A stretch of DNA of 64,000 nucleotides, taken from the NCBI RefSeq assembly GCF_013283665.1, contig NZ_JABEKU010000002.1, positions 1,424,863-1,488,862 of the forward strand. The letters are read 5' to 3'. Source of the DNA: Ensifer sesbaniae (GTDB lineage: Bacteria > Pseudomonadota > Alphaproteobacteria > Rhizobiales > Rhizobiaceae). The translations under genes and the position numbers were made by a program. Numbering within the stretch: position 1 is the stretch's first letter; each line of letters starts with the position of its first letter. The notes beneath the pieces were generated by a model. That model was not told the DNA's origin. It saw only the letters and a program-made list of their open reading frames with translations, and did not search any database. Below are positions 15,841 to 42,300 of the stretch, piece after piece.

Positions 15841-17007
15841 ATGTCGCAATCTTTTGACGCAAACCGGTCCCTCACCGCTCTCAATGAGGATAGCACGTTG
15901 ATCGCAGTCATCGAAATGAGCCAGGCAACGTGGCTGATTGCCGCGCTCGTTCCCGGGCTGCAACGGCAGCCGCTGAAGAAGATCGACGCCGATGAGACGG
16001 CATTGTTGAAACTGCTGCAGCGTTGGCGCGACGAAGCCGGCCACATCGGCCATCGTATCGAGCGCATCGCCATCGCCTATGAGGCGGGCCGCGACGGCTT
16101 CTGGCTGCGCTGGCTCCAGGTGCGTGGCATTGAGGCCTATGTGATGCATCCCGCCAGCGTTGCCGTCTCCCGCGAGCACCGGCGCGCCAAAACCGATCGC
16201 CTCGACACAGAACTGCTAATGCGCGCCTTTCTCGGCTGGCTGCGCGGCGAGAAGCGTCATTGCACGATGGCGGCAATCCCGGCGGTCGAGGAGGAGGACG
16301 CGCGGCGGCCGAGCCGCGAGCGCGACAGCCTGGTCGCTGAGAACACGCGCATCATCAATCGCTTCAAGGCGATCCTCGCTCGCTTCGGCATTCGCACCTT
16401 CAAGCCGGCCTTGCGCAAGGCCGTGGACAGGCTCGAGGCCGTCCGCACGCCGGAGGGCATGGTGTTGCCGAACAACACGCGCGCTGAGCTGCGCCGCTTG
16501 CTTGAGCGGCTGCGGCTCGTGCGCGAGCATATCCGCGCCATCGAGCGGGAACGCCTGCGCCTGCTGGAGGCGGCGCCGGCAGAGGCAGAAGACCATCCGC
16601 CGGCAATGGTGCGCTTGCTCGCGAAGGTGATCGGCATCGGCGTCGAGACCGCTGACATGCTGGTCCACGAGATCCTGTCGCGCAAGCTGCGCGATCGGCG
16701 TGCCGTGGCACGCTACGCCGGCCTTACCGGGGCGCCGGACGAGAGCGGCAAACGCCGGCGCGAGAAGGGATTGTCACGCACCGGCAACGGCCGCGTGCGA
16801 TGCGGCATGATCCAGTTGGCGTGGCGCTTTCTCCGCTTCCAGAAAGACAGTGCGCTTGCGCAATGGTTCCAGGCGCGCACGAGCGACGGCCGCAGCGGCA
16901 CACGGAAGACGATGATCGTGGCGCTCGCCCGCAAGCTGCTGATCGCCCTGTGGCACCTTGTCACCACGGGCGAGGTGCCCGAGGGTGTAGTGTTGCGTCC
17001 GGCGTGA
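15841..17007 (+). CDS. IS110-family transposase (DEDD recombinase), apparently intact
   Basis: 388 aa. The N-terminal RuvC-like DEDD domain has the first Asp replaced in the visible alignment by VIEMSQATW, then RRAKTDRLDTELL with a conserved Asp pair. The C-terminal Transposase_20 domain contains KVIGIGVETADMLVHEI and YAGLTGAPDESGKRRREKGL. The ATG has GGAGGTG at good spacing. Full length suggests activity, but the first acidic residue deserves checking, since IS110 proteins normally have D-x-S/H there. The element truncates an IS630 gene on its left. Confidence 0.85.
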   Translation: MSQSFDANRSLTALNEDSTLIAVIEMSQATWLIAALVPGLQRQPLKKIDADETALLKLLQRWRDEAGHIGHRIERIAIAYEAGRDGFWLRWLQVRGIEAYVMHPASVAVSREHRRAKTDRLDTELLMRAFLGWLRGEKRHCTMAAIPAVEEEDARRPSRERDSLVAENTRIINRFKAILARFGIRTFKPALRKAVDRLEAVRTPEGMVLPNNTRAELRRLLERLRLVREHIRAIERERLRLLEAAPAEAEDHPPAMVRLLAKVIGIGVETADMLVHEILSRKLRDRRAVARYAGLTGAPDESGKRRREKGLSRTGNGRVRCGMIQLAWRFLRFQKDSALAQWFQARTSDGRSGTRKTMIVALARKLLIALWHLVTTGEVPEGVVLRPA

Positions 17008-18441: not shown

Positions 18442-18493
18442 CATCACTGCCCACGAAATGCGTCGAAGTCATACAAGCTGGAGGAGCATGGAA

Positions 18494-19522
18494 ATGGCAA
18501 AGACGATGAAAGCGGCTGTCGTTCGACAGTTCCGCGCTCCGCTCACCATTGAAGAAATGGCCGTTCCGACACCCGGACCAGGACAGATACTGGTCAAGTA
18601 CGAGGCGACGGGCGTGTGCCACACTGATCTCCACGCCGCCAATGGCGACTGGCCGGTAAAGCCGTCGCCGCCTTTTGTACCCGGACATGAGGGCGTTGGC
18701 TTCGTTTCAGCGGTCGGAGCCGGCGTGAAAAGGGTAAAGGAGGGCGACAGGGTCGGGGTGCCTTGGCTGCACACCGCCTGCGGCTACTGCCCCTATTGCC
18801 GAACCGGTTGGGAAACACTGTGCGCTTCGCAGGCCAATACAGGATACTCCGTCAACGGAACCTTCGCGGAGTTCGGACTGGCGGACCCGGATTTTGTCGG
18901 CGCCGTTCCAGATAAACTGGAGTTCGGTGCAGCTGCGCCGGTCCTTTGCGCGGGAGTCACCGTATACAAGGGACTGAAGGAGACGGAAGTTCGCCCCGGG
19001 GAGTGGGTGGCGATCTCAGGCGTCGGTGGCCTCGGCCATATGGCCGTGCAGTATGCCAAGGCGATGGGCATGAATGTCGTCGCCGCGGACATATTCGAGG
19101 AAAAACTGGCGCTGGCCAAGCAGCTCGGCGCCGACATCGCAGTCAATGGCAAGGCGAAAGATGCTGTCGAGCAGGTAACGAAGGCAACCAACGGCGGCGT
19201 TCATGGGGTCCTTGTGACCGCTGTTTCTCCCGCTGCAATGGAACAGGCTTTCGGGTTCATGCGGTCGAAGGGGACCATGGCGCTCGTCGGCCTGCCTCCG
19301 GGCATGATGTCCCTGCCTGTCTTCGAAACAGTCCTCAAACGCATCACCGTGCGGGGATCGATCGTCGGTACGCGACAGGATCTGGAGGAATCGTTGACCT
19401 TTGCGGCCGAAGGAAAGGTGAAACCGCATTTTTCCTGGGATCGCCTCGAGAACATCAATGACATTTTCGAGCGGATGGAGGCGGGCAAGATCGACGGTCG
19501 CATCGTCATGCGACTTCACTAG
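18494..19522 (+). CDS. adhA: Zinc-dependent alcohol dehydrogenase, AdhA/AdhP type
   Basis: 342 aa. The ATG at 18494 lies eight bases after GGAGGAG; an upstream ATG (18488) is too close to it. Catalytic zinc ligands Cys 42 (GVCHTDLH), His 65 (GHEG) and the structural zinc cysteines 96, 99, 102 and 110 (CGYCPYCRTGWETLC) are all present. The NAD site GVGGLGHMAVQYAK is normal. It interconverts ethanol and acetaldehyde. It lies 51 bp after the CBS-BON gene and 60 bp before phosphoketolase. The EutBC fusion 8 kb downstream would generate acetaldehyde, a possible substrate if both reach the same compartment. Confidence 0.87.
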   Translation: MAKTMKAAVVRQFRAPLTIEEMAVPTPGPGQILVKYEATGVCHTDLHAANGDWPVKPSPPFVPGHEGVGFVSAVGAGVKRVKEGDRVGVPWLHTACGYCPYCRTGWETLCASQANTGYSVNGTFAEFGLADPDFVGAVPDKLEFGAAAPVLCAGVTVYKGLKETEVRPGEWVAISGVGGLGHMAVQYAKAMGMNVVAADIFEEKLALAKQLGADIAVNGKAKDAVEQVTKATNGGVHGVLVTAVSPAAMEQAFGFMRSKGTMALVGLPPGMMSLPVFETVLKRITVRGSIVGTRQDLEESLTFAAEGKVKPHFSWDRLENINDIFERMEAGKIDGRIVMRLH

Positions 19523-19582
19523 TTCACCAGTGTGCACGATGACAATCTGATGGCATTTCCATCGCCTGATAAGGACGCTCAG

Positions 19583-22021
19583 ATGATTTCACCTGAATTA
19601 GCATCCGCAAGCTCAGCAGTCCCGCTGACAGACGACGAACTCCGTCTGATGGACGCCTATTGGCGAGCCTCCAACTACCTTTCCGTCGGCCAGATCTATC
19701 TGCTCGACAATCCGCTGCTGCGCGAGCCGCTGAAACGCGAACACATCAAGCCACGCCTGCTCGGCCATTGGGGCACCTCGCCCGGCCTCAACATGCTCTA
19801 TGTGCATCTCAACCGCGTGATCAAGCGCGACGATCTCAACATGATCTATATCATCGGGCCGGGGCACGGCGGACCGTCGCTGGTGGCGCATGCCTATCTC
19901 GAAGGCACCTATAGCGAGTTCTATCCGGATATCGGCGAAGACGCCGAGGGCATGCAGCGGCTCTTCAAGCAGTTCAGCTTTCCGGGCGGCATACCGAGCC
20001 ACGTGGCGCCGGAAACGCCCGGCAGCATCCATGAAGGCGGCGAGCTCGGCTATGCGCTGAGCCACGCCTATGGCGCGGCCTTCGACAACCCGGACCTCGT
20101 CGTCGCCTGCATTGTCGGCGATGGCGAGGCCGAGACCGGGCCGCTTGCCACCGGTTGGCAAAGCAACAAGTTCCTGAACCCCGCCCGCGACGGCTGCGTC
20201 CTGCCGATCCTGCATTTGAACGGCTACAAGATCGCCAACCCGTGCTTCCTCGCCCGCATCCCGCGTGACGAGTTGCAGAAGTTCTTCGAGGGCATGGGCT
20301 ACAAGCCCTATTTCGTCGAAGGGCATGATCCGGAAAGCGTGCACCAGCAACTGGCCGGCGTGCTCGATACGGCCATGGCCGAGATCCGGCAGATCTGGGA
20401 CGACGCCCGCGTGAGGGGCAACCTGAAGCGGCCGGCCTGGCCGATGATCATCTTCCGCACGCCCAAGGGCTGGACCTGCCCGAAGGAGATCGACGGCAAG
20501 AAATGCGAGGATTACTGGCGCTCGCACCAGGTGCCGATGGGCGAAATGGACAAGCCCGAGCACATCCGCATCCTCGAGCAGTGGATGAAGAGCTATCGCC
20601 CCGAGGAGCTTTTCAGCGACGAGGGCCGGTTGAAGCCCGAAATCGCAGCGCTGGCGCCGACGGGGCATCGCCGCATGAGCGACAATCCGCACGCCAATGG
20701 CGGCCTGCTGCTGCGCGACCTGAAGATGCCGGCGTTCCGGAATTATGCCGTCGACGTTCCGCGTCCGGGTGCGACGACCGTGGAGGCCGCCCGTGTCATG
20801 GGCAAGTTCCTGCGCGACGTCATGAAGTCCAACATGGACTCCAGGAACTTCCGTCTGTTCAGCCCGGACGAAAACAATTCCAACCGCTGGCAGGACGTGC
20901 TGGAGGTCACCAATCGCTGCTACATGGCCGAGATCTATCCGGAGGACGATCACCTCTCACCGGATGGCCGCATCATGGAGGTCTTAAGCGAACACCAGTG
21001 CCAGGGCTGGCTCGAAGGCTATCTCTTGACCGGCCGCCACGGCTTCTTCTCCTGCTACGAAGCCTTCATTCACATCATCGATTCGATGTTCAACCAGCAT
21101 GCCAAGTGGCTGAAGGTCTGCAACGAGATTCCCTGGCGCCGGCCCGTCGCGTCGCTGAACTACTTCTTGAGTTCCCATGTCTGGCGGCAGGACCACAACG
21201 GCTTCAGCCATCAGGATCCGGGCTTCATCGATCACGTCGTCAACAAGAAGGCCGACGTCATCCGCGTCTACCTGCCGCCGGATGCCAACACGCTGCTCTC
21301 CGTCACCGACCACTGCCTGCGCAGCCGCAACTACATCAATGTCGTCGTCGCCGGCAAGCAACCGGGGCCGCAATGGCTGACGATGGAGCAGGCCGTGCGC
21401 CATTGCAGCATGGGCGTCAGCATATGGGATTGGGCCAGCAACGATGCCAACAGCGAGCCGGACGTCGTCATGGCCTGCTGCGGCGACGTTCCGACGCTCG
21501 AAACGCTGGCCGCGGTCCAATTGCTGCGAGAGCATCTTCCCGAAGTGAAGGTCCGGGTCGTCAACGTCGTCAATCTGATGAAGCTGCAGCCGGCGGAAGA
21601 GCACCCCCATGGCCTCTCCGACCGCGATTTCGATGGCATCTTCACCAGGGACAAGCCGATCATCTTTGCCTTCCATGGCTATCCGTGGCTGATCCATCGC
21701 CTCACCTACCGCCGTACCAACCACGACAACCTGCATGTGCGCGGTTACAAGGAGGAAGGCACGACGACGACGCCTTTCGACATGGTGGTGCTGAACGAGC
21801 TCGATCGTTTCCATCTCGCTGGCGACGTCATCGACCGCCTGCCGCAACTCGGCGCCCGCGCCGCCTACTTCAAGCAGGCGATACAAGCCAAGCTGATCGA
21901 GCATCGGGAATATATCGAGAAGCATGGCGACGACATGCCGTCGATCAGTGGCTGGAAATGGGGCGTCAAGGATGCGCAGCAGGCGAAGCCGACGACCTCG
22001 ACGGAAGGCGATAACGTCTAA
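19583..22021 (+). CDS. xfp: Xylulose-5-phosphate/fructose-6-phosphate phosphoketolase
   Basis: 812 aa from the ATG preceded by AAGGA; GTG at 19532 is an alternative, but its extra residues are not family-like. The thiamine-diphosphate enzyme has the conserved [11 protein letters not shown] and [21 protein letters not shown] blocks near the N-terminus, the cofactor-binding region [14 protein letters not shown], and [17 protein letters not shown] in the middle. It cleaves xylulose-5-P or fructose-6-P with phosphate to acetyl-P and a C3 or C4 sugar phosphate. No acetate kinase or phosphotransacetylase is encoded in the window, so the acetyl-P must be used by enzymes encoded elsewhere. Confidence 0.92.
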
Positions 22022-22043: not shown

Positions 22044-25000
22044 ATGGCCAGGCCAGTTGGCACGATCGACGTCACTGCAACGCGCCTAGCAGGCGTGCCT
22101 CCTGACACGACCTTGCTCTCGAACGGCCACTACAACGTGCTTCTGACGGAGGCCGGCGCCGGCTACGGAAACTGGCGCGGCCTCGATATCTTGCGTTGGC
22201 GTGAAGACGGCACACGCGATTGCTGGGGCCAGTTTTGTTATGTTCGCGACCTTGAGAGCGGCGAGGTCTGGACGATCGGCAGGCAACCGATCTGCCATGC
22301 TGATGCGACCTACGAGCACCGATTTCACGGAAATTGGGCCGAGTATCGCTGCTTTCTCGATGACATCGACATTCATTGGGAGGTCTGTGTCGCGCCGGAT
22401 TGCGATGCCGAGGTGCGGTTGCTGAACCTCCGCAACAGGGGGACGAAAGCAAGAAAACTGGAGCTGACAAGCTACAGCGAGGTCTGCTTGAGTGGGCGGA
22501 GCGCAGACAGCGCACACCCCGCCTTTGCTAAGCTTTTCATCGAAACCTGGTTCGACGCGGATACGACCGCCTTGTTCGCGCGACGCCGGCCACGCAGCGC
22601 ATCGGAGCGACCCATTTGGGCGCTGCACGTGTCCGCATCACGCGAGCCGGCGCAGCCAGTAGAGTATGAAACGGACCGCTACACCTTTCTCGGGCGGCGT
22701 CGAACACCAGAAAACCCCATCGCGCTTGCGCCTGGGAGCCGCCTGTCAGGCGCGACAGGCCCTGTGCTCGATCCCATCTTCAGCCTGCGCCGTAAAGTCC
22801 ATCTGGAACCCTCTGCGATACAGCAGATCGCGTTTGTAACGGGCGCTGCCGACAGCGATGTTGGCGCTGCGGCGATCGCCAAACGGTTCACCGATATAGA
22901 CGCAGCGCACCAATCGTTGCTGGACGCCAAGAAAAACAATGGAGCATCCCCTTTTCCATCGCTTCAAGAGTTGGCCATTTACAATCGGCTCGCAGCGCAC
23001 TTAGCTTTTTCTATTCCAAGCTCCCGAGAGACTGGCGCGACCGACATAAGGCGGGCAAAGCGTAGCGACTTGGGAGCGGTTGGACTGTCGGGTACAGTCC
23101 CAATTCTGCTGTTGCATATCGACGAAACAGCCGATGCCCTCGTCGACGAAGTGATAATTGCCCACGCATTCATTGTTAATCGTGGATTTCCCTTCGATCT
23201 CGTCGTCCTGGATGAAAGAGATTCCAGCGAAAGCTTACAGTTGAGCGGCAAGGCGGCCGCCCATGTGGAGCGAGTTCTGGGCCAAGCAGGAGGCGTTCAC
23301 TTTCCAAAGAACGAAAATGTTTCGGAGGGCGTTACAAGCGCGATCACCGCCGCCGCGCGCCTGATTCTTTGCTGTGGTCGTGGCCCTCTGACAGGCCAGC
23401 TTTCGTCAATATCAGCACCCACGTCTTCAGCGTTGAAAGAGGCCAAGCCAAACATCCCCGCCGCACAAAGTGAGCGTCAGGCCATATCGCCAGAGAGTCT
23501 GCTTTTTTGGAATGGCCGAGGCGGCTTCACGAAAGACGGACGCGAATACGTAATCGCAGCCGATGCGCCTCCAACGCCGTGGTGCAACGTCCTTACCAAT
23601 GGGATGTTTGGCTGCCTGACAAGCGATAGCGGCCTTGGGTACACCTGGGCGGGCAATAGCCAGCTGAATAGACTCACACCCTGGTCAAATGACCCGGTTT
23701 CAGATGCTCCCAGTGAAGTTGTCTATTTGCGTGACGAGCAGACCGCGGAAGTGTGGACCCCGACGCCCTTGCCGCTAGGGCATACCTTGGCGACCAAGAC
23801 CAGGCACGGCCACGGCTACAGCTGCTACGAGAGCCGCCACGGAACCCTGCACCAGGAGATGGCTGTGCACGTCCCGTCTTCAGGAAGCATCAAGGTCATC
23901 CGCCTTGCTATCCGCAACGACGGCAACAAGACGCGAAATTTAACTGCGACATACTTTCTCGAATGGGTCCTCGGCACCCTACGCGAAAGTGCATCCGCTC
24001 GGGTCGAATGCGAATTTGACGCTGAGATCGGTGCCATCGTTGCCCACAACATCTGGGAAGATGGCCTTCCCAAAACCCTCGCATTCGCGGCCTCAAGCGC
24101 GCCTATCCGATCGTTCACATGCGATCGCAGCGCGTTCCTCGGCAGAAACGGCTCTATCGCCCAGCCGTTGGGATTGAAAGGCCTTGATCTCGGCGGGCAT
24201 TCTGGCCCTCATCTAGACCCTTGCGCAGCCCTCATGGTCAGCGTTTCAATCCCTGCGGCGCAGACCGTCGAGCTGGTATTCGTGCTTGGCCAGGCCGAGA
24301 GCCGCGAGGAAATGCGCAGGCTCATCCGCGAACATGCCAATTCGAAGGGCTCCAAGAGTTCGCTTTCAGCCGTTTCACAACGTTGGGATCAACTGCTGAG
24401 TTCCGTCACGGTTCGAACGCCCGACATGGCCTTCGACCTGATGATAAACCGCTGGTTGCTCTACCAGGTGTTGGCCTGCCGTCTCTGGGCGCGAACGGGC
24501 TTCTACCAATCAGGCGGCGCGTATGGGTTTCGCGACCAGCTTCAAGACGTCGCAGCTCTTGTCCATTGTGCGCCCGAGGAAGCGCGTGAGCACATTCTGC
24601 GGGCCGCATCGCACCAATTTACGGAAGGAGACGTGCAACACTGGTGGCACCCGCCTACGGGCGCCGGGGTGCGTACCCGCATGACGGACGACCTCTACTT
24701 TCTGCCATACGTGGTCGAGCACTATGTCTCGGTCTCAGGAGACTACGAACTCCTCAACGAGCAGGTACCCTTCATTGTGTCGCCACCTTTGACTGACGAT
24801 GAGGAGGAACGCTACGAGGTCCCCGCAGTCAGTGAGGAACAATGGACCATCTACGAGCATTGCTGCCGGGCGCTCGATCAGGGTCTGCGCCTGGGAACTC
24901 ATGGGCTCCCGCTTATGGGAACGGGCGACTGGAACGACGGTATGAATCGGGTCGGCGCGGAGGGCAAAGGCGAAAGCGTCTGGAATGGATGGTTCTTTTT

Positions 25001-25886
25001 GACCGTGCTCAAGTCTTTTGCCGGCATTGCTTCGAAGATGGGAGATGACGAACGCGCCGCTTGGTGTATCGGCAACGCAGAGGCCTTACGCGTGTCGCTG
25101 GAAACCCATGCCTGGGACGGTTCCTGGTATCGCCGCGCCTACTTCGACGATGGTACGCCCCTAGGGTCCCATTTGAACGATGAGTGCCAGATTGACGCTA
25201 TTCCGCAGGCCTGGGCGGTCATCTCAGGTGCTGCAGATTCCGAGCGGGCCGCCATGGCAATGCACGCAGTTTGGGAACGACTTGTTCGGACCGATAACGG
25301 TTTGATCCAGCTTTTCGATCCGCCGTTCGACAAAGGCTCTCTGCAACCGGGTTACATAAAGGGCTACGTGCCCGGAATTCGAGAAAATGGCGGCCAGTAC
25401 ACCCACGCGGCCACCTGGGTGGCGCTGGCGACCGCATTGATGGGAGATGGCGATCGAGCATTCCAGCTCTGGAGTATGCTCAATCCCATCAATCACGCCG
25501 TGTCGCCCAAAGACACCGACCGCTACATGGTGGAACCCTATGTTGTCAGCGCCGACGTCTATGGCGCCGCTCCTCATACTGGTCGCGGGGGCTGGACCTG
25601 GTACACGGGATCGGCGGGCTGGCTTTATAGGGTTGGGCTTGAAGCCATCCTTGGCATTCGCCGCGAGGGACGTCGGCTTGTTGTCGAGCCTACAATCCCC
25701 AAACAATGGCCGGGATACGATGTTGATTTTCGATATGGGAGATCAACTTACCATATCAAGGTGAGCCGAGATCACAGACTCGAACGGACCCACTATTCGC
25801 TAAGTGTTGACGGAAAGGTCGCTCATCAGAGCGTTCCACTCGTGGACGACGGACGAGATCATAATATCCGTCTCGTGATTGGTTAG
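22044..25886 (+). CDS. GH94 (NdvB C-terminal-like) glycoside phosphorylase
   Basis: 1280 aa. It carries two GT36-type N-terminal beta-sandwich repeats: one from about residue 20 (TTLLSNGHYNVLLTEAGAGY) and a second from about 510 (VLTNGMFGCLTSDSGLGYTW). A helical (alpha/alpha)6 catalytic barrel with GDWNDGMN at about 961-968 follows; Asp 965 is the expected general acid. Length and order match the GH94 third of cyclic beta-1,2-glucan synthase NdvB, but the GT84 synthase and membrane segments are absent and there is no signal peptide. Stand-alone GH94 enzymes phosphorolyse beta-1,2-, beta-1,3- or beta-1,4-linked glucose oligomers to glucose-1-P. With the glycoamylase-like neighbour, beta-1,2-glucan is the likeliest substrate (inference). 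Confidence 0.82.
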   Translation: MARPVGTIDVTATRLAGVPPDTTLLSNGHYNVLLTEAGAGYGNWRGLDILRWREDGTRDCWGQFCYVRDLESGEVWTIGRQPICHADATYEHRFHGNWAEYRCFLDDIDIHWEVCVAPDCDAEVRLLNLRNRGTKARKLELTSYSEVCLSGRSADSAHPAFAKLFIETWFDADTTALFARRRPRSASERPIWALHVSASREPAQPVEYETDRYTFLGRRRTPENPIALAPGSRLSGATGPVLDPIFSLRRKVHLEPSAIQQIAFVTGAADSDVGAAAIAKRFTDIDAAHQSLLDAKKNNGASPFPSLQELAIYNRLAAHLAFSIPSSRETGATDIRRAKRSDLGAVGLSGTVPILLLHIDETADALVDEVIIAHAFIVNRGFPFDLVVLDERDSSESLQLSGKAAAHVERVLGQAGGVHFPKNENVSEGVTSAITAAARLILCCGRGPLTGQLSSISAPTSSALKEAKPNIPAAQSERQAISPESLLFWNGRGGFTKDGREYVIAADAPPTPWCNVLTNGMFGCLTSDSGLGYTWAGNSQLNRLTPWSNDPVSDAPSEVVYLRDEQTAEVWTPTPLPLGHTLATKTRHGHGYSCYESRHGTLHQEMAVHVPSSGSIKVIRLAIRNDGNKTRNLTATYFLEWVLGTLRESASARVECEFDAEIGAIVAHNIWEDGLPKTLAFAASSAPIRSFTCDRSAFLGRNGSIAQPLGLKGLDLGGHSGPHLDPCAALMVSVSIPAAQTVELVFVLGQAESREEMRRLIREHANSKGSKSSLSAVSQRWDQLLSSVTVRTPDMAFDLMINRWLLYQVLACRLWARTGFYQSGGAYGFRDQLQDVAALVHCAPEEAREHILRAASHQFTEGDVQHWWHPPTGAGVRTRMTDDLYFLPYVVEHYVSVSGDYELLNEQVPFIVSPPLTDDEEERYEVPAVSEEQWTIYEHCCRALDQGLRLGTHGLPLMGTGDWNDGMNRVGAEGKGESVWNGWFFLTVLKSFAGIASKMGDDERAAWCIGNAEALRVSLETHAWDGSWYRRAYFDDGTPLGSHLNDECQIDAIPQAWAVISGAADSERAAMAMHAVWERLVRTDNGLIQLFDPPFDKGSLQPGYIKGYVPGIRENGGQYTHAATWVALATALMGDGDRAFQLWSMLNPINHAVSPKDTDRYMVEPYVVSADVYGAAPHTGRGGWTWYTGSAGWLYRVGLEAILGIRREGRRLVVEPTIPKQWPGYDVDFRYGRSTYHIKVSRDHRLERTHYSLSVDGKVAHQSVPLVDDGRDHNIRLVIG

Positions 25887-25888
25887 CC

Positions 25889-27208
25889 ATGCCGGAATTG
25901 CTGTCGACAGATCCCGAACTGAACCGGATGCCGACCGAGCAGGACCTTGCCCGGCTGCAGTTCACGACCCTGCTCTACTACCTGCATTGCACCAATCCCG
26001 ATAACGGGCTCGTGCGCGACAAGACTCAGGAAGATGCGCCCGCAAGTATCGCGGCGATCGGCATGGCGCTTGCGACGATCCCCGTGCTGGTCGAGCGGGG
26101 CATCGTCATTCGCAAGTTCGCCGCGAAGATCGCGCGTCGACGGCTGCAGTTTCTGCTGCAATGCCCGCAGGGGCCGGAGCCGGACGCCTCGGGCTACAAG
26201 GGCTTCTTCTATCACTTCCTTGATATCGAGACCGGCAGGCGCGTTTGGGAATGCGAATTGTCGACGATCGACTCCGCCTTCCTTTTTGCTGGTGCGCTGA
26301 CGGTCGCCGCTTATTTTGATGGCGATGCGGCGGACGAAGTCGAAATCCGCCGCTCGGCAAATGCGCTCTATGAACGGGCCGACTGGAACTGGGCCTGCGA
26401 TCACGGACTTACGCTGACGCATGGCTGGCGGCCGGAAAGCGGCTTCATTCCCTATCGCTGGCGCGGTTACGACGAGGGCCTGCTTCTCTACATCCTGGGC
26501 CTCGGTTCCCCCACCCATCCGCTGCCGGCGGAAGCCTACACCGCCTATACCGAAAGCTACGACTGGCGGAACCTCTATGGTCGCGAGCTCCTCTATTCGG
26601 GCCCACTCTTCACGCACCAGCTGTCACATATGTGGATCGATTTCCGCGGTATCCGTGACGCCTTCATGCGCGAGCACAACAGCGACTACTTCCAGAACAG
26701 CCGGCACGCGACCTTCGTCCAGCAGCAATATGCCATCCGCAACCCGCTGAGTTTCGTCGGCTACGGCGAGCATTGCTGGGGGTTCACGGCGAGCGACGGA
26801 CCCGGCTGGACCAAGCGCACCGTGAACGGCAGCGAAAGGGAGTTCTTCGATTACCTTGCCCGCGGTGCGCCCTTCGGCCCGGATGATGGGACCGTGTCGC
26901 CCTGGGCCGTCGTCGCCTCGCTGCCCTTCGCGCCGGAGATCGTCATCCCGACGGTCCGGAACTTTGCCCGCATGGACCTGGGCATGACCAGGCTTTACGG
27001 CTTCAAACCCTCCTTCAACCGAAGCTTTCCGGTGGAGGGAAGCGAATCCGGCTGGTGGGTCAGCCCCTATCACTTCGGCATCGACCAGGGCCCGGTGGTC
27101 CTGATGATCGAGAACTACCGAACCGGCCTGCTGTGGAACATCATGCGCCGGTGCGCGCCGCTGGTGGTGGGACTGAGACGAGCCGGTTTCTCCGGCGGTT
27201 GGCTCTGA
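25889..27208 (+). CDS. Glycoamylase-like (PF10091) protein, related to beta-1,2-glucanases GH144/GH189
   Basis: 439 aa. The protein is (alpha/alpha)6-barrel-like, with FYHFLDIETGRRVWECELST, YRWRGYDEGLLLYILGLGS, GPLFTHQLSHMWIDFRGIRD and a C-terminal GWWVSPYHFGIDQGP, all hallmark blocks of the glycoamylase-like family. This family includes endo-beta-1,2-glucanases and the central domain of NdvB. No secretion signal is visible. The gene begins 2 bp after the GH94 stop, so the two are translationally linked. Together they reproduce the last two domains of NdvB as separate proteins in reversed order, and probably act on beta-1,2-glucan or a similar oligosaccharide. Confidence 0.82.
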   Translation: MPELLSTDPELNRMPTEQDLARLQFTTLLYYLHCTNPDNGLVRDKTQEDAPASIAAIGMALATIPVLVERGIVIRKFAAKIARRRLQFLLQCPQGPEPDASGYKGFFYHFLDIETGRRVWECELSTIDSAFLFAGALTVAAYFDGDAADEVEIRRSANALYERADWNWACDHGLTLTHGWRPESGFIPYRWRGYDEGLLLYILGLGSPTHPLPAEAYTAYTESYDWRNLYGRELLYSGPLFTHQLSHMWIDFRGIRDAFMREHNSDYFQNSRHATFVQQQYAIRNPLSFVGYGEHCWGFTASDGPGWTKRTVNGSEREFFDYLARGAPFGPDDGTVSPWAVVASLPFAPEIVIPTVRNFARMDLGMTRLYGFKPSFNRSFPVEGSESGWWVSPYHFGIDQGPVVLMIENYRTGLLWNIMRRCAPLVVGLRRAGFSGGWL

Positions 27209-27250
27209 GCAGCTAAGGCCGGTATCGACATCTGCAGAAAGGAAACACCC

Positions 27251-29596
27251 ATGAACAAGGGCTTCTTCTCCAACCAGCATGCCGGGCTATCCAGAAGAGA
27301 TCTGATCGTAATGGCAGGGACCGCCGCGCTCGCAAGCTACAGTCACCGGGCGATAGCAGCGCTGGCTGGAGAGGTCCTCACTATCAAGGAAATCGCACAA
27401 GACGAGGACGTGTTTACCTATGTCAGCAGGGTTAAAGGCAGCTTCGATCAGAAAACATACCAGCAGGTTATTGGTGCGGCAAACGACTTCAAGGAGGGCG
27501 ATCAGGCAATCGGAGTAGGCGCTGCCGACGATGCGACCCGACGCAACGCTCGAGCCCTTCTGGCAAACACGAAAATCAAGGATCTGCACCAGCGTCCGCT
27601 ATTCGAGGACGATCTGCAGCGCCTCATATGGCAGACGACTGATCAGGCCCAGTTTGAAAGGACGAAAGACTGGACCATGAGCCAGCTGAAGGAATTTCTT
27701 CTGACCAAATCGGAAGAAGAGATCAAAGGGATCATGAATGGCCTGAGCAGCGACACCATCGGCTGCGTGCCGAAGCTCATGAGCAACGAAGAACTGATCG
27801 CCGTCAGCCAAAAGATTTTCAACGTTATGCCCGGCACCAAGCTGGGCGCCAAAGGATACATGGGCGCACGTATCCAGCCGAATTCGCCGACCGATCACCC
27901 CGATGACATCATGTGGCAGGTCTTTGATGCATTCTCTTACGCAACCGGCGACATCGTCATCGGCACCAACCCCGTCGACAGTACGGTGGACAGCGTCGCT
28001 ACGGTTGAGCGTGCCCTGAAGGACGTCGTCGATACCTTCAAGCTGAACGACGTCGTTCCCTGGTGCGTGCTTGCGCACATCGACGTCCAAGGCGAGGTGA
28101 GTGAGCGTTTCCCTGGCACGGTTTCTACGATGTTCCAGAGCCTTGCAGGTACGGATGACTGCAACAAGATTTTCGACATCACCAACGAGAAGATCCTGAA
28201 GTATGCCCGCGGGAAGGCAGGGGAACGGTATGGCCTTTACTTCGAAACCGGACAGGGCTCGGAATTCACCAACGGCGTGGCCAACGGCGTCGACATGATG
28301 GTGCTGGAGTCGCGAAAGTACGGCTTCAGCAGGGCGGTCGGTATCGAGCTTGCGAAGGTGCAGCCCCAGGGTGCGTGGCTGCATGTCAACGATGTGGCCG
28401 GCTTCATCGGACCAGAGGTCTTCAAGAGCCGCGACCAGCTTGTGCGGTGCTGCCTCGAAGACATGGTCATGGGCAAGCTCCACGGACTTACGATCGGCCT
28501 CGATATCTGCACCACCTTGCACATGACGGTCAGCCTGGACGATCTCGATTGGTGTCAAGACCAGATCATGCCCGCCAATCCGGCATACCTGATTGCCCTG
28601 CCCACCAAGAACGACCCGATGTTGAGCTATCTCACGACCGCGTTTCAGGACCACGTGCGCGTGAGGGAGAAATTCGGCTTCAAGGTCAACGATGCCATGT
28701 GGGACTTCTACAAACGCATCGGGATCGTCGGCAAGGACAACAGCTACACGTCACACTACGGAGATCCCCTCTGGGTCTACTACCAGTACCGCCTCGCCAA
28801 GGGTGACAAGCGGGCCAAGAAAGCAGTCTACGCCGAAGGCAGGCAGCAGATGATGGAGGTCGAAGCGAGAGGCGTCGACCTGGCAACGGGACACGGAGAC
28901 AAGATCTGGGATCTCAACCCTGCGCTGGCGACGAAAGTCAGGGGCCTGTATGATGATGCCAAACAGTCTCTCTGGGCCGAGCTCACGCCGGAGTTTATCG
29001 CGGCCGTCCCCAACGTCGTGCCGGTTCGTACCCTGTCCAAGGACCGAAACGACTACATAGCCCACCCGACTACCGGCGAGACACTGAACCGGGAAGCGAT
29101 TGCCGAAATCGAAAGGCTTAGAGCCTCCTGGGGAAGTGATATGCCCAAGGGCCAGATCGTCATCTCGGACGGTCTGAACGCCAAGGCCATTATGGATGAT
29201 GGCCATCTCTCCCCGTACCTTGAGGAGATGCGCCGGTTGCTTGGCGACGCCGGCGTCACAGTCAGCGACAAGAACATCCTCGTGACGGGCGGCAGAGTGC
29301 GGGCCGGCTATCGAATCGGCGAGATGCTGTTCGAGAAATCGGACCCAGACAGCCTGAGAGGGATACTTCACATAATCGGAGAGCGGCCCGGCACCATGCA
29401 CCATGCTTTCTCGGTCTACATCACCGTCGCTAAAGGCAAGCGGTGGTCAGAGAAAGGTATCGATCACGATGTTACGCGGCTAGTCAGCAATGTCGCGGAT
29501 ACCGCGCTCGCCCCCAAGGAAGCGGCCAAGGAAACCCTGACCATCATCAGAGAAATCGTCGCCAAACAGGTCAACAACAGTCGGCGATACGGATAG
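27251..29596 (+). CDS. eutBC: Ethanolamine ammonia-lyase, EutB-EutC fusion with Tat-like signal peptide
   Basis: 781 aa. Residues 11-36 (LSRRDLIVMAGTAALASYS) form a twin-arginine-type signal: RR, hydrophobic stretch, small residues. Residues about 45-578 are a complete EutB: VMPGTKLGAKGYMGARIQPN carries the substrate Arg 207 and Gln 209, Asn 240 in GTNPV, Glu about 332 in YFETGQG, Asp about 418 in LDIC. From about 579 a EutC domain follows (QIVISDGLNAKA, GERPG), including the cobalamin-contacting region. EutB and EutC are normally separate genes and cytosolic. The enzyme converts ethanolamine to acetaldehyde and ammonia using adenosylcobalamin; an exported form would need the cofactor inserted before Tat export or supplied outside. 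No eutA reactivase gene is nearby. Confidence 0.85.
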   Translation: MNKGFFSNQHAGLSRRDLIVMAGTAALASYSHRAIAALAGEVLTIKEIAQDEDVFTYVSRVKGSFDQKTYQQVIGAANDFKEGDQAIGVGAADDATRRNARALLANTKIKDLHQRPLFEDDLQRLIWQTTDQAQFERTKDWTMSQLKEFLLTKSEEEIKGIMNGLSSDTIGCVPKLMSNEELIAVSQKIFNVMPGTKLGAKGYMGARIQPNSPTDHPDDIMWQVFDAFSYATGDIVIGTNPVDSTVDSVATVERALKDVVDTFKLNDVVPWCVLAHIDVQGEVSERFPGTVSTMFQSLAGTDDCNKIFDITNEKILKYARGKAGERYGLYFETGQGSEFTNGVANGVDMMVLESRKYGFSRAVGIELAKVQPQGAWLHVNDVAGFIGPEVFKSRDQLVRCCLEDMVMGKLHGLTIGLDICTTLHMTVSLDDLDWCQDQIMPANPAYLIALPTKNDPMLSYLTTAFQDHVRVREKFGFKVNDAMWDFYKRIGIVGKDNSYTSHYGDPLWVYYQYRLAKGDKRAKKAVYAEGRQQMMEVEARGVDLATGHGDKIWDLNPALATKVRGLYDDAKQSLWAELTPEFIAAVPNVVPVRTLSKDRNDYIAHPTTGETLNREAIAEIERLRASWGSDMPKGQIVISDGLNAKAIMDDGHLSPYLEEMRRLLGDAGVTVSDKNILVTGGRVRAGYRIGEMLFEKSDPDSLRGILHIIGERPGTMHHAFSVYITVAKGKRWSEKGIDHDVTRLVSNVADTALAPKEAAKETLTIIREIVAKQVNNSRRYG

Positions 29597-29719: not shown

Positions 29720-31399
29720 ATGGATAACCAGCAAGTGCCGCTTAAAGTCACCGCGGCGCGTTTCTTACGATCCTTGCGAATTTTGTTGGCCTCTGAGGTC
29801 GGCGGACGGGCTAAATTGTTGTTTGCCGGGCTCGTGTTGTTGTTGTGCGGGTTGAACGGTCTCAACGTCGTCAACAACTATGTCGGCCGAAACTTTATGA
29901 CCGCGATCGCCGAGCGCCAGACCGACGAATTCGTCCGACAAGCTATTTTCTATATTTGCGTTTTTGCAACCCTTACCGTCGTCGGGGTGATCGCTCGTTA
30001 CGCCGAGGAACAACTGGCGTTGCTGTGGCGCGAGTTCCTCACCCGTCGCGCGGTAAATCTCTACCTCGAGGACGGAACTTACTATCGCCTCGATATTTCA
30101 GGAAAGCTCGCTCATCCGGATCAACGCATCGCAGAGGATATCCGCGCCTTCACTGTCACCACACTTTCTTATGTCATCATGCTGTTCAGCGCTGGGCTGA
30201 CTGTGGTGAGTTTCTCCGGCGTGCTTTGGTCCATAAGCCCCGTTTTGTTTGTCGTCGCGGTCCTCTACGCGGCCTGCGGCTCCTATATAACGATTGTGCT
30301 GGGACGACCACTCATCGACTTGAACTACAACCGGCTCGACAAGGAGGCCAGTTTTCGATCAAGCCTGATCCACGTCCGGGAAAATGCCGAATCCGTTCTG
30401 GTAACGCGTAGCGAGGAGCAACAACAAACTCGCCTCCTGCATCGCTTTGACGACCTGGTCGCCACCATTCGCAGTATCATCGCTGTCAACCGCAACCTGG
30501 GCTTCTTTACCAATGGCTACAACTGGATGATCCAAATCATTCCGGACCTCATCATAGCACCCACGTTCATGAGAGGGGAAATCGAGTTTGGCGTCATCAC
30601 CCAAGCGGGTGCAGCCTTTGCCATGCTCGTCGGTGCATTTTCGTTGATCATTCGGCAGTTCAATTCGATCTCGAACTTTGCCGCCGTCGTCTCTCGCTTG
30701 AGTTCATTGCTGGAGGCCATAGAAAGATCGCACACAAGCGGCACTGCCTGCATTGAACTCAAAGAGCATGAGGGACGGTTCGCATTTGAGCAAGCGACCC
30801 TGCGTGCACCTGATGGATCACCTCTCGTCAACGATCTCTCGATATCCATTCCCGCGACTAGCCGTGTGCTGGTGACGGGAGCCAGCCCTGCCGTGGGAGC
30901 AACCCTGTTCAGGGCGGCTGCTGGAATTCCAGTGGCCGGCGCCGGTCGAATTATTCGGCCTGGCCCGAAGGACCTCATGTTTCTCCCGCAGCGACCCTAC
31001 TTACCTCCTGGCTCGCTGCGGCAAGTGTTGCTTCCTTCGGGCGAACTCAGCGAAGTATCCGATTCCAAACTTCGTCAGGTGCTGCGAGAAACTGGATTGG
31101 AGGACTTGGCCGACGATGCCAGCGCACTGGACAAAGAAGACATCCGAGAAATGTCTCTGGGCGACCAGCAACTCTTGGCAATCGCCAAAGTCCTCCTGGC
31201 CAGACCACAGTTTGTTTTTCTCGACCGGATTGAGACAACGCTCGGACAGAAACTGTTCGATAAAGTGCTGGCCCTCTTCTCGGAAAAGTCGATTGCCTGC
31301 GTCAGTAATAGCGAGCGACCCGACAACCGTGATCTATATGAGGCGGTATTGGAGTGCCACGACGGCGGCAAATGGACATGGAAACCAAGGCGGTTGTGA
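29720..31399 (+). CDS. ABC transporter of the BacA/YddA/ABCD4 type with degenerate ATPase motifs
   Basis: 559 aa. The N-terminal ABC_membrane_2-type domain (residues about 25-330) has roughly six hydrophobic segments (LLFAGLVLLLCGLNGLNVVN and others) and the family's EEQLALLWREFLT. The C-terminal nucleotide-binding domain is abnormal: the Walker A region reads GASPAVGATLF without the essential Lys, and Walker B reads FVFLDRIETTL, where the catalytic Glu is Arg. The signature MSLGDQQLLAIAKVLL remains. Relatives (Rv1819c/BacA of mycobacteria, ABCD4) move cobalamin, peptides or other hydrophilic compounds. It lies 123 bp after the cobalamin-dependent EutBC fusion, so a cofactor role is attractive; ATP-driven transport looks impossible without a partner. 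Confidence 0.75.
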   Translation: MDNQQVPLKVTAARFLRSLRILLASEVGGRAKLLFAGLVLLLCGLNGLNVVNNYVGRNFMTAIAERQTDEFVRQAIFYICVFATLTVVGVIARYAEEQLALLWREFLTRRAVNLYLEDGTYYRLDISGKLAHPDQRIAEDIRAFTVTTLSYVIMLFSAGLTVVSFSGVLWSISPVLFVVAVLYAACGSYITIVLGRPLIDLNYNRLDKEASFRSSLIHVRENAESVLVTRSEEQQQTRLLHRFDDLVATIRSIIAVNRNLGFFTNGYNWMIQIIPDLIIAPTFMRGEIEFGVITQAGAAFAMLVGAFSLIIRQFNSISNFAAVVSRLSSLLEAIERSHTSGTACIELKEHEGRFAFEQATLRAPDGSPLVNDLSISIPATSRVLVTGASPAVGATLFRAAAGIPVAGAGRIIRPGPKDLMFLPQRPYLPPGSLRQVLLPSGELSEVSDSKLRQVLRETGLEDLADDASALDKEDIREMSLGDQQLLAIAKVLLARPQFVFLDRIETTLGQKLFDKVLALFSEKSIACVSNSERPDNRDLYEAVLECHDGGKWTWKPRRL

Positions 31400-35087: not shown

Positions 35088-35410
35088 GGACGCACACGCT
35101 GCACGGAAAGATCCTTTCACTTGCCATCGCCGGTTTTGCCATGCTCGCGGCAGACGCTCTCGCTCCCGCGCCGTTCGGCTCGTTCGTGCCCGAGGCGCAG
35201 GCGGTCGTGGGACGGCCGTTGACACCTGGAAGTGTTGCGGGTGTCGCTCGCCGCACCACGCGCCGAGTGATCCGCCGCTCCACGGTGTATGTTGCCGCAC
35301 TGCCCACCGGCTGCGTTAGAACGAGTGTCAATGGCACGGTCGTGTGGCGCTGCGGCGGGGTCTACTACCAGCCGTACGGCGGGCGCTACGTCGTCGTTTA
35401 CATTGACTAA
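35084..35410 (+). CDS. Small exported hypothetical protein, 108 aa
   Basis: The signal peptide (LSLAIAGFAMLAADALA) is followed by a basic segment (VARRTTRRVIRRSTVYVAAL) and a C-terminal part with two Cys and GGVYYQPYGGRYVVVYID. The two cysteines (CVRTSVNGTVVWRC) could form a disulfide. It is translationally coupled to the DUF2092 gene by an ATGA overlap and followed 46 bp later by DUF1254. Such small Tyr/Gly-ended proteins commonly accompany DUF2092 genes. Function unknown. Confidence 0.72.
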   Translation: MRTHTLHGKILSLAIAGFAMLAADALAPAPFGSFVPEAQAVVGRPLTPGSVAGVARRTTRRVIRRSTVYVAALPTGCVRTSVNGTVVWRCGGVYYQPYGGRYVVVYID

Positions 35411-35456
35411 ACTCAGAGCATTACGTCGCAACTCGATTTTTCGATGGAGGAATAGA

Positions 35457-36899
35457 ATGGATATTACGCGTCGTGACTTGACGGCCGCCGGTCTTGGAGT
35501 GTTGGCGGCAGGTTCTCTCGCAAGACCTGGTGCTGCCGCCGACGGGTTGGTGGCGGATCTGCCGGAAGGGCTCGACGAATTCGCGCTCGCCGTCGAGGCG
35601 TACACTTATGCCTATCCACTGGTGACAATGGAACTGACCCGGCGCGTGATTACCAACGTCGCGGAACCTGAAGGAACCCGTGGCCCCATGGGGCATCTGA
35701 TCAAGCTGCGTCAGTATCCGGACGCCAAGTTTCGGGATGTGACCGCACCGAACGCAGATACCCTTTATACGACCGCGTTCTTCGACGTGGGCGATGAGCC
35801 CTGGGTCATCACCCTGCCCGACCTCAAGGATCGTTACGCCCTGTTCCCAATGCTGGATGGCTGGACGACCGTTTTCGACGTTCCTGGAAAGCGCACGACG
35901 GGCACCGAGGCCCAGACATTCGTGGTAACAGGACCCGGCTGGGAAGGCACACTTCCCGACGGCGTGACCCAATACAAATCTCCGACGAGCATCGTTTGGC
36001 TGCTTGGACGCATCTATTGCACGGGTACCCAGGAGGACTACGCCGAAGTTCATAAGCTCCAGGACGAAGTGAAGCTCTATCCCTTGAGTGCATGGGGCAA
36101 GGACTGGACAGCACCCAAAGGCAAGGTCGATCCGACCATCGATATGGAGACTGCCGTTCGCGAGCAGGTCAATGGCATGGATGCCATCGAGTACTTCACC
36201 CTCTTTGCCGAGCTTCTGAAACGCAACCCACCGAGTGAGGCGGATGCACCGATGATTGCCAAGCTCGCCGAGCTTGGCATTGTCCCGGGTCAGGACTTCG
36301 ATAAAAGCAAGTTCGAACCGGCGTTTGCCAAGCGCGTGCCCCAGGTCGCCTTCGCGCGCATCATGATGCACTTCAAGCTCAGCGATGGCGACGTGCAGGA
36401 TATCGATGGCTGGGGTTTCACGACCAAGACTGGCATCTATGGCACCAACTACATCCAGCGAGCCTTGGTCACCGCGATCGGCCTTGGGGCAAACCGGCCG
36501 CAGGATGCGGTCTACCCGACGTCGATGAAGTCCGGCGGCGGTCTGATCAAACGGGCCTATAACGGTTCCGAGAAATACGTGATGACTTTCAAGAAAGGCC
36601 AGACGCCGCCCGTTTCGGGTTTCTGGTCCTTGACTATGTATGACGCGGGATACTTTTTCGTCGACAATCCGCTCAATCGCTATTCGATTAGTGCACGGCA
36701 GGACCTGAAGGCAAATCCCGACGGTTCGATCGATTTGTTCATTCAGAATGAATCGCCCGGGGCAGATAAGGAGTCGAACTGGCTTCCAGCACCCAAGGGG
36801 AAGTTCATTCTCATGATGCGCCTCTACTGGCCCAACGAGAGCAATCCCTCCATCATTGACGGTTCTTGGACGATACCGCCGGTAAAGAAGGTGAGCTAA
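35457..36899 (+). CDS. DUF1254/DUF1214 protein with Tat-type signal
   Basis: 480 aa from the ATG preceded by ATGGAGGAAT. The N-terminus MDITRRDLTAAGLGVLAAGS is a twin-arginine-type signal. DUF1254 follows (about residues 50-190: AYTYAYPLVTMELTRRVITN, APNADTLYTTAFFD) and DUF1214 near the C-terminus (VSGFWSLTMYDAGYFFVDNP). These beta-rich proteins occur widely in the alphaproteobacterial envelope; their biochemistry is unknown. It is third in an operon with DUF2092, and a paralogue with a Sec-type signal is encoded at 40732-42300. Confidence 0.85.
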   Translation: MDITRRDLTAAGLGVLAAGSLARPGAAADGLVADLPEGLDEFALAVEAYTYAYPLVTMELTRRVITNVAEPEGTRGPMGHLIKLRQYPDAKFRDVTAPNADTLYTTAFFDVGDEPWVITLPDLKDRYALFPMLDGWTTVFDVPGKRTTGTEAQTFVVTGPGWEGTLPDGVTQYKSPTSIVWLLGRIYCTGTQEDYAEVHKLQDEVKLYPLSAWGKDWTAPKGKVDPTIDMETAVREQVNGMDAIEYFTLFAELLKRNPPSEADAPMIAKLAELGIVPGQDFDKSKFEPAFAKRVPQVAFARIMMHFKLSDGDVQDIDGWGFTTKTGIYGTNYIQRALVTAIGLGANRPQDAVYPTSMKSGGGLIKRAYNGSEKYVMTFKKGQTPPVSGFWSLTMYDAGYFFVDNPLNRYSISARQDLKANPDGSIDLFIQNESPGADKESNWLPAPKGKFILMMRLYWPNESNPSIIDGSWTIPPVKKVS

Positions 36900-40731: not shown

Positions 40732-42300
40732 ATGTTATCTGAAATGCTTCGTCCTGCGGTGTTGGCCGCGGCCGGTTTGCTTGCAACGACGCTGACTGCG
40801 GCCGGCGAGGTAAAAACCCCGGGCTACAACCATAAAATCCCCGAAAAGATTATGACCCCCGACAAGGTGGAAACAAGGTTGGGTACGCTGAGGTTCTTTG
40901 ATGGGATGCCGGATGAAGCAACTGTCGATAGGCTCTATGACAATCTCGACCTCATGCGCGGCGTCGAGACGTTCCTCAACGGCATCCCCGCCACATCCGT
41001 CGAAGGCATTCGGCTCGGGCATCTGGAGTTGGGCGCGGACACATCATATAAGGCAATCCTTCTTGACCAGCTGATGGACTCGGCGCCGCTGTTCCTCACC
41101 GGCAACACCGACACTGTCTATGGCAGCGTTGTTCTCGACTTGTGGAAAGACGGGCCGACGGTTGTGGAGATTCCTGCCGGGTCTGGTCCCGGCACGGTCA
41201 ACGATGCCTATTTTCGCTTTGTGACCGACATGGGCGGGCCGGGCCCCGACCGCGGCAAGGGCGGCAAGTATCTGATCCTGCCGCCCGACTACCAGGGAGA
41301 TCTCAATCCGCCGGTCGGCGGCATGGAGGCGGAGGTCGAGGGTGAAACGTACTTCGTTTCCAAGTCTACGAGCTATGTAAATTGGCTGATCCTGCGTGGC
41401 TTTCTGGTCGATGGAAAGCCCGACGCGGCAGTCGCTTCCTTCAAGAGCGGGCTGAAGGTCTATCCGCTCAGTAAGCGTGATAACCCGCCGGAAATGGAGT
41501 TCATCAGCGGATCGCGTAAATCCTGGAATACCATTCATGCCAACAATTACGCGTTCTACGAAGAGCTCCACACGGTCATCAATCGGGAACCGACGTCTAT
41601 GCTCGATCCCGAACTGCTCGGCCTGTTTGCCGCTATCGGCATTGAAAAGGGCAAGCCCTTCGCCCCGGATGCGCGGATGAAGAAACTGTTGACCGAGGCA
41701 GTCGCTGTCGGCAACGCAACCGCCCGCGCGCTGATTTTCCGACCCCGTCTTGACGGTTTCCATCTCTACCCGAACAGCGCATGGGGCGCGGCCTTCGTTG
41801 GGGGAAGCTATGAATGGCTTCGGGACGGCGGCAAGGGTGGCCGTTATCTCGACGCCAGAACCCTCTTCTTCTACCAGGCGACGGTCAACACACCTGCCAT
41901 GGTGGAGAAAATGATCGGCGCTGGTTCCCAGTATGCATATGCTGCGACCGACCGAAACGGCGACTATCTGGATGGCGCAAAGACATACAAGCTTCGCATT
42001 CCCGCCAATCCACCGGCCAAGGATTTCTGGTCCGTAGTGGTCTACGATCCGCAGACGCGCTCGGAACTCCAAACCGGCCAGACCTTCCCAAGCAAAAACA
42101 ACAAGCGGGACAAGCTGATCGAGAATCCCGACGGCTCGGTCGAGCTCTATTTCGGTCCGAAGGCACCCGAAGGCAAGGAGGCAAACTGGATTCAAACCAT
42201 CGCCGGCAAGGGATGGTACACGCTTCTGCGGCTTTATGGGCCACTCGAGCCCTGGTTCGATAAGACCTGGCGGCCGGGCGAGTTCGAACCGATCGATTAA
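40732..42300 (+). CDS. DUF1254/DUF1214 exported protein, Sec-type signal
   Basis: 522 aa; the ATG is preceded by AGGAGAGG. The signal peptide reads LRPAVLAAAGLLATTLTAAG. The DUF1254 block (about 60-230: LRFFDGMPDEATVDRLYDNL, LTGNTDTVYGSVVLDL) and DUF1214 block (about 400-500: FWSVVVYDPQTRSEL, GSVELYFGPKAPEGKEANWI) are complete. It is a paralogue of the protein at 35457-36899 but uses a different export route. An operator-like motif in front suggests control by the adjacent AraC regulator. Function unknown. Confidence 0.85.
   Translation: MLSEMLRPAVLAAAGLLATTLTAAGEVKTPGYNHKIPEKIMTPDKVETRLGTLRFFDGMPDEATVDRLYDNLDLMRGVETFLNGIPATSVEGIRLGHLELGADTSYKAILLDQLMDSAPLFLTGNTDTVYGSVVLDLWKDGPTVVEIPAGSGPGTVNDAYFRFVTDMGGPGPDRGKGGKYLILPPDYQGDLNPPVGGMEAEVEGETYFVSKSTSYVNWLILRGFLVDGKPDAAVASFKSGLKVYPLSKRDNPPEMEFISGSRKSWNTIHANNYAFYEELHTVINREPTSMLDPELLGLFAAIGIEKGKPFAPDARMKKLLTEAVAVGNATARALIFRPRLDGFHLYPNSAWGAAFVGGSYEWLRDGGKGGRYLDARTLFFYQATVNTPAMVEKMIGAGSQYAYAATDRNGDYLDGAKTYKLRIPANPPAKDFWSVVVYDPQTRSELQTGQTFPSKNNKRDKLIENPDGSVELYFGPKAPEGKEANWIQTIAGKGWYTLLRLYGPLEPWFDKTWRPGEFEPID

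Follow-up and report, generated by a model that had tools for sequence, protein, structure and literature searches.

The locus considered here lies within a stretch of 64,000 nucleotides of Ensifer sesbaniae DNA, referred to throughout as the window, which at 27251..29596 (+ strand) contains an intact open reading frame of 781 codons plus stop. The product of this gene, eutBC, combines in one chain the EutB and EutC parts of ethanolamine ammonia-lyase (EAL), which are normally two separate proteins within the cell. Its EutB domain (residues 68-500; 27452..28750, +) was delimited by Pfam PF06751, NCBIfam EutB and residue mapping, and its EutC domain (residues 545-773; 28883..29569, +) by Pfam PF05985; in the latter the DGL, RV and GERPG motifs are conserved. 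The protein reached 474.2 bits against the Pfam EutB model (cut-off 25), 643.6 bits against the NCBIfam EutB model (cut-off 554) and 108.3 bits against the Pfam EutC model (cut-off 25.8). The NCBIfam EutC equivalog model gave 79.5 bits, below its cut-off of 230, and because the EutC half is divergent in this sense the window protein was filed as a variant. Among proteins with known structures, those related to it are EAL chains (3abo, 2qez and others). The open reading frame and the Pfam matches thus agree with the initial annotation, which had described EutB and EutC as fused in a single frame of 781 codons. Residues 1-36 (27251..27358, +) form a twin-arginine-type signal, in which the arginine pair occupies residues 15-16 (bases 27293-27298).

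The eutBC gene is the last of a co-oriented run that comprises genes for a CBS-BON protein, an adhP-type zinc alcohol dehydrogenase (18458..19522, +; NCBIfam AdhP 370.3 bits, cut-off 344), a phosphoketolase (19532..22021, +), a GH94-type protein (22044..25886, +) and, directly 5' of eutBC, a glucoamylase-family (PF10091) protein (25889..27208, +). Among 54 family loci, relatives of the phosphoketolase were found in 16, of the GH94-type protein in 15 and of the glucoamylase-family protein in 13, the last standing immediately 5' of eutBC in 6 of 51 loci. An Adh relative is present in 27 of the 54 family loci, at least three of these matches being short; all 27 fall within the 30 rhizobial loci, and the Adh relative lies immediately 5' of eutBC in 10 of 51 loci, so that adhP is the steadiest rhizobial partner of eutBC seen. 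Acetate kinase-type genes form a cluster covering 6 loci (one gene checked), and a phosphotransacetylase is located close to the eutBC copy of L104. On the other side, eutBC is adjoined by a gene for an ABC_membrane_2 / SbmA-BacA-like ABC transporter (29720..31399, +), which the initial annotation had put forward as a possible companion of EutBC fusions. This expectation did not hold, as relatives of the ABC gene occur in just 2 of the 54 family loci, directly 3' of eutBC in one (L087), with a further relative following eutBC in L027; its candidacy as a conserved cobalamin partner was accordingly rejected. Elsewhere in the window, an IS110-family transposase (15841-17007) is situated 5' of the gene run, and two nearby DUF1254/DUF1214 proteins are encoded at 35289-36899 and 40732-42300. 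A DUF3300-DUF2950 gene pair occurs near eutBC in seven loci, rhizobial as well as deltaproteobacterial (L032, L033, L095, L105, L108, L110 and L122; one of each gene checked), and the pair and eutBC have perhaps moved together.

Proteins of this kind constitute a distinct subfamily by sequence, with about 28-37% identity to ordinary EutB. In 394 genomes sampled from the family, the fusion was present over its whole or nearly whole length in 12, at 82-100% identity, and, remnants aside, other matches to the EutB half showed 31-37% identity. Within the genus of the window, 10 of 16 genomes carry the fusion, nine seen as fusion sequence (among them G014, with a frame break) and one (G013) judged by frame length alone. 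No other stop-free match spanning both halves was found at E <= 1e-55 in a class sample of 385 genomes and a phylum sample of 398. When 84,980 species genomes were scanned with two short peptide patterns, 51 fusion loci with identities of 53-88% were obtained, a number that is therefore a lower bound. By record title, 27 belong to rhizobia and relatives and 24 to other organisms; most of these 24 are deltaproteobacterial MAGs, and one Acidobacteria and one Verrucomicrobia MAG are also among them, either of which could be a binning error. The fusion was additionally recognized on 25 plasmid records at 80-90% identity, including S. meliloti pSymA. Five Pelobacter-type genomes possess two diverged fusion copies each, and only fusions were matched in them. 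Ordinary EutB was not found in 16 of the 17 fusion-carrying genomes searched, many of them MAGs; it is present besides the fusion in G1195 and G072. Viral contigs contained 85 stretches fitting a pattern, none coding for a relative of the fusion, and the exact EutC motif GERPG was found in none of 59 ordinary EutB open reading frames inspected for further fusions.

In the trees, the rhizobial fusions form one branch (support 97) adjoining L099 and L100, a Syntrophaceae MAG and another deltaproteobacterial MAG, which suggests that the fusion was transferred from deltaproteobacteria to rhizobia, within the bounds of a quick method in which the long branch between fusion and ordinary proteins leaves the root, and the position of a fused Methylocystis protein, unsure. 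For the second tree, near-duplicates and L116 (ten rows in all) were removed from the fusions, as were 39 of the 59 ordinary rows; the Methylocystis protein was excluded as well. Several individual loci are also worth recording. The adh-eutBC arrangement appears twice in Rhizobium sp. BK251, on two contigs of one genome (L111 and L133). In the remnant L172 (G005:C2:975000-983500), the start of adhP (residues 2-75) lies close to a stretch corresponding to the final third of eutBC (residues 532-781), as if the sequence separating the two had been deleted. In L171 (G010:C3:148500-156500), a stretch resembling eutBC residues 1-69 is found directly 3' of the glucoamylase gene, and the same genome has a full eutBC copy on another contig.

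The catalytic positions of EutB, which we take to be R160, Q162, N193, E287 and D362 in E. coli numbering, align with R207, Q209, N240, E332 and D418 of the window protein. Together with S247 and F258, these five residues are identical in all 56 fusion rows and in all 59 ordinary rows (58 distinct), the latter having been picked by the motif ETGQG, which contains E287 and occurs in all 59 loci given. The 56 fusion rows took in four of six further Pelobacter-type copies; a separate count covered the other two (L162 and L163) and found the seven positions identical in all 14 Pelobacter-type loci, which encode 11 distinct proteins, part of them counted before. On the EutC side, D167-L169, R206, V207 and G227-G231 are identical in 52/52 fusions and 56/56 ordinary EutC sequences. 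EAL-type lyase activity of the fusion protein is therefore likely as judged from its residues, and the exact substrate is less sure, since positions near the active site differ from ordinary EutB, so that the substrate may differ as well. Specifically, E. coli EutB Y365 is replaced by T, S or A, N403 by S or G, and L294 by F in 56 of 56 fusion rows, with Y in some second Pelobacter-type copies; in EutC, R256 is replaced by T in 52 of 52 fusions and C258 mostly by L. The loss of E257, presumably an adenosyl-ribose contact in E. coli, was considered as a fusion-specific change (I or T in fusions) and dropped, as ordinary EutB has S, G, A or E at this position. A separate observation concerns residues 717, 718 and 739 (window 29399-29404 and 29465-29467), which are His in 52/52 fusions and in 0/56 ordinary EutC sequences, two of the three coming after the GERPG motif.

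These consistent differences raise the possibility of an exported EAL-type lyase acting on another amino alcohol or a choline-like compound instead of ethanolamine. Such a reading could also accommodate the divergence between the two copies that five Pelobacter-type genomes each possess, and the part of PMC3543383 dealing with fused EutBC proposes that the two copies of Pelobacter carbinolicus might divide ethanolamine and choline between them. However, all 56 rows retain the residues that we presume to bind ethanolamine, and the linkage of the rhizobial copies to adhP points to a C2 aldehyde. A different substrate is thus regarded as unlikely, and ethanolamine is retained as the substrate in the preferred reading.

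Residues 13-36 of the window protein read LSRRDLIVMAGTAALASYSHRAIA, ending in AIA, and the features of a Tat substrate (an RR motif, a hydrophobic stretch and a cleavage site) are found within residues 14-36, with cleavage after AIA36 being likely from the sequence. The genome also encodes TatC. Across 17 rhizobial genes, residues 13-36 show divergences of 0.25/0.13/0.49 at codon positions 1/2/3, whereas a gap-free comparison of the DNA upstream of eutBC gave a flat 0.66/0.61/0.62. This codon-position pattern, unlike that of the upstream DNA, indicates that the N-terminal extension is translated and constrained, which upholds the twin-arginine-type signal of the initial annotation.

The question whether other EutBC fusions also bear a signal, raised at the same time, can be answered in the affirmative. 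The window protein and the 51 loci make 52 sequences, of which L116 is truncated by a contig end; all 51 complete N-termini possess a signal, 46 of RR type (defined as RR within the first 26 residues) and five of Sec type, the signal of L130 being weak (hydropathy 0.91) and that of L103 bearing a lipobox-like LAGC. The Sec-type signals, for example MQLKSKLFYGIIFGLALAFTASLAGA in L112, belong to five Desulfuromonadales/Pelobacter MAG members, and in the Pelobacter-type genomes both eutBC copies are of this type. In the stretch tested, 45 of the 46 RR-type signals contain [AVSGL]xA and 32 the strict AxA, which is absent from the remaining 14. A separate set of rhizobial sequences, which includes the window and partly overlaps the 51, was RR-type in 10 of 10. 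The first 45 residues are distinct in 49 of 51 stretches, L114 and L117 sharing one identical N-terminus. The best N-terminal hydropathy has a median of 1.85 in the 51 fusions versus 0.45 in 52 ordinary EutB proteins (of 59, seven being too short), among which the highest value is 1.84. The RR pattern fits one of these 52 ordinary N-termini, in a stretch whose start is unsure. On the tree, the Sec and RR routes are separated by one change, with a support of 95 for the Sec branch; a route that changed while the signal was retained provides strong evidence, at the level of sequence comparison, for selection on export in the fused subfamily.

The same data bear on the view that the enzyme is cytosolic, its N-terminus being a relic or translation beginning at an internal Met (residue 21) with loss of the RR. 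Signal function is predicted from sequence, internal ATG codons do exist, and the start codons of the fusion relatives were picked by hand. Against this stand the retention of signals, of another type in one branch, and the constraint on residues 13-36 seen in the codon divergence. In addition, a Shine-Dalgarno-like AAAGGA read from the sequence (27238..27243, +) lies 7 bases 5' of the ATG at 27251, and hence before the RR; similar purine-rich stretches precede the chosen start in most rhizobial relatives, and in L105, L107, L126, L127, L130 and L131 the chosen start immediately precedes the RR. A cytosolic location is accordingly considered improbable, and an exported protein remains preferred.

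The surroundings of the Sec-type copies are of a different composition from those in rhizobia. Upstream of eutBC, each of the five Sec-type loci contains genes for a binding protein and a Gcw_chp-type protein (one of each checked), and CobT-, CobS-, CobQ-type and tetrapyrrole-methylase genes occur downstream of L112, L113 and L115. In the Pelobacter-type genome G1200, a TonB receptor, a Peripla_BP_2 protein and an ABC ATPase are encoded within about 16 kb past the second eutBC copy. MoxR, DUF58 and VWA genes, possibly a chaperone or insertion system, were also noted past that copy (L166, 7194-13932). The genome of the window contains a CobS gene, and in the 14-34 kb portion of the window no cobalamin riboswitch and no regulatory RNA reaching the gathering score was detected. 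Near eutBC, 0 sigma-70 promoters were found against 1.2 expected by chance, which permits no conclusion for Ensifer sesbaniae. Searches of the whole genome gave 0 matches to EutH and 0 to microcompartment shell proteins, the E. coli control being positive in both cases, and so extend to the entire genome the absence of eutH and shell genes noted earlier for the window. EutA produced one marginal partial match of 26.6 bits (positions 122-194 of 475), or 27.4 bits when its neighbours are included, just above the cut-off of 27.

Export signals, and the corrinoid and binding-protein genes that accompany some copies, would also suit an EAL-derived periplasmic protein that binds corrinoids or amino alcohols and is not an enzyme. 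Nevertheless, the catalytic positions are retained in fusions down to 52% identity with the window protein, the five Pelobacter-type genomes match fusions only, and P. carbinolicus strains grow on ethanolamine according to the part of PMC3543383 concerned with these proteins; a non-enzymatic role is rated as more improbable still than a cytosolic enzyme. That two genes were merely joined by an annotation or assembly artefact can be set aside almost entirely, given the occurrence of the fusion on 25 plasmid records at >80% identity and at 51 species-genome loci.

Overall, with a probability of roughly 0.6, the eutBC product would be an extracytoplasmic, cobalamin-dependent ethanolamine ammonia-lyase of a distinct fused subfamily. 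The rhizobial protein would leave the cytoplasm through Tat, probably in a folded state with cobamide bound, and would cleave ethanolamine to acetaldehyde and ammonia in the periplasm, so that neither an ethanolamine permease nor a shell would be needed. Acetaldehyde may then diffuse inwards, where the linked AdhP and acetate enzymes would convert it, and the fusion would hold the EutB and EutC parts at 1:1 while allowing a single signal to export both. For the Pelobacter-type branch, a Sec-type signal implies an unfolded chain during export, so that cobamide insertion would have to follow it in an extracytoplasmic step; the periplasmic binding proteins and corrinoid genes linked to these copies agree with this. 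The earlier proposal that the cofactor is inserted before Tat export is thereby weakened: it may still apply to the RR-type proteins, and it fails for the Sec-type proteins, five members plus their paralogues, which would leave the cytoplasm unfolded and for which insertion after export is the simplest consequence. A more far-reaching view, in which a lineage of adenosylcobalamin-type radical lyases is permanently extracytoplasmic and its Desulfuromonadales branch combines unfolded Sec export, a dedicated, linked corrinoid supply that provides cobamide in the periplasm, and EutA-free reactivation, is offered tentatively and is on balance doubtful. The known adenosylcobalamin radical enzymes are cytosolic, and their cofactor delivery and reactivation use ATP; an exported subfamily therefore poses the question of how such a cofactor could be supplied and regenerated in a compartment devoid of ATP. 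Since Tat and Sec forms occur in one family, cofactor loading before and after export could be compared between two homologues. If the main reading is correct, ethanolamine could serve soil, nodule and sediment bacteria as a source of nitrogen and of a two-carbon unit with no need for its uptake.

A literature search by titles and abstract starts, with most subscription journals outside its coverage, returned no publication on an exported EAL, nor any linking ethanolamine ammonia-lyase with twin-arginine. Compared with known systems, enteric EutB plus EutC (E. coli; PDB 3abo and others) shares with the fusion its domains, catalytic positions and EutC motifs, but consists of two chains, whereas the window protein is one chain with an export signal; the enteric eut operon has EutH and a shell, while the genome of the window is devoid of both and has no clear eutA. 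A second kind of EutBC fusion is represented by a plasmid protein of Methylocystis sp. MJC1 (L034:5896-8091; P0001), which likewise holds EutB and EutC in one chain and differs in its 27% identity, its lack of an export signal and the Ala at the D362 position. SbmA-BacA-type ABC transporters such as Rv1819c have a role in cobalamin uptake, and the family includes the ABC gene following eutBC in the window, although it is unlinked to eutBC in most relatives. Corrinoid-containing reductive dehalogenases are exported by Tat and so combine a corrinoid with an RR signal, as proposed for the window protein, yet they are unrelated in family and chemistry and operate without an adenosyl radical.

The fusion itself is already known, as fused EutBC1 and EutBC2 of Pelobacter carbinolicus, which are the same fusion as the window protein, were reported in 2012 (PMC3543383). 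The section of that paper on fused EutBC suggests that their gene neighbours may mediate ethanolamine uptake and makes no mention of export. The two copies in G1200 share 92% and 71% identity with the L113 protein and 69% with each other, compared with 70% printed for P. carbinolicus in the same section, and in G1200 as in the published description a binding protein, an unknown protein and corrinoid uptake genes lie beside eutBC, from which we infer that G1200 is P. carbinolicus. The Pelobacter-type fusions have Sec-type signals and cobalamin genes as neighbours, whereas the window type has an RR-type signal and is accompanied by adhP and phosphoketolase.
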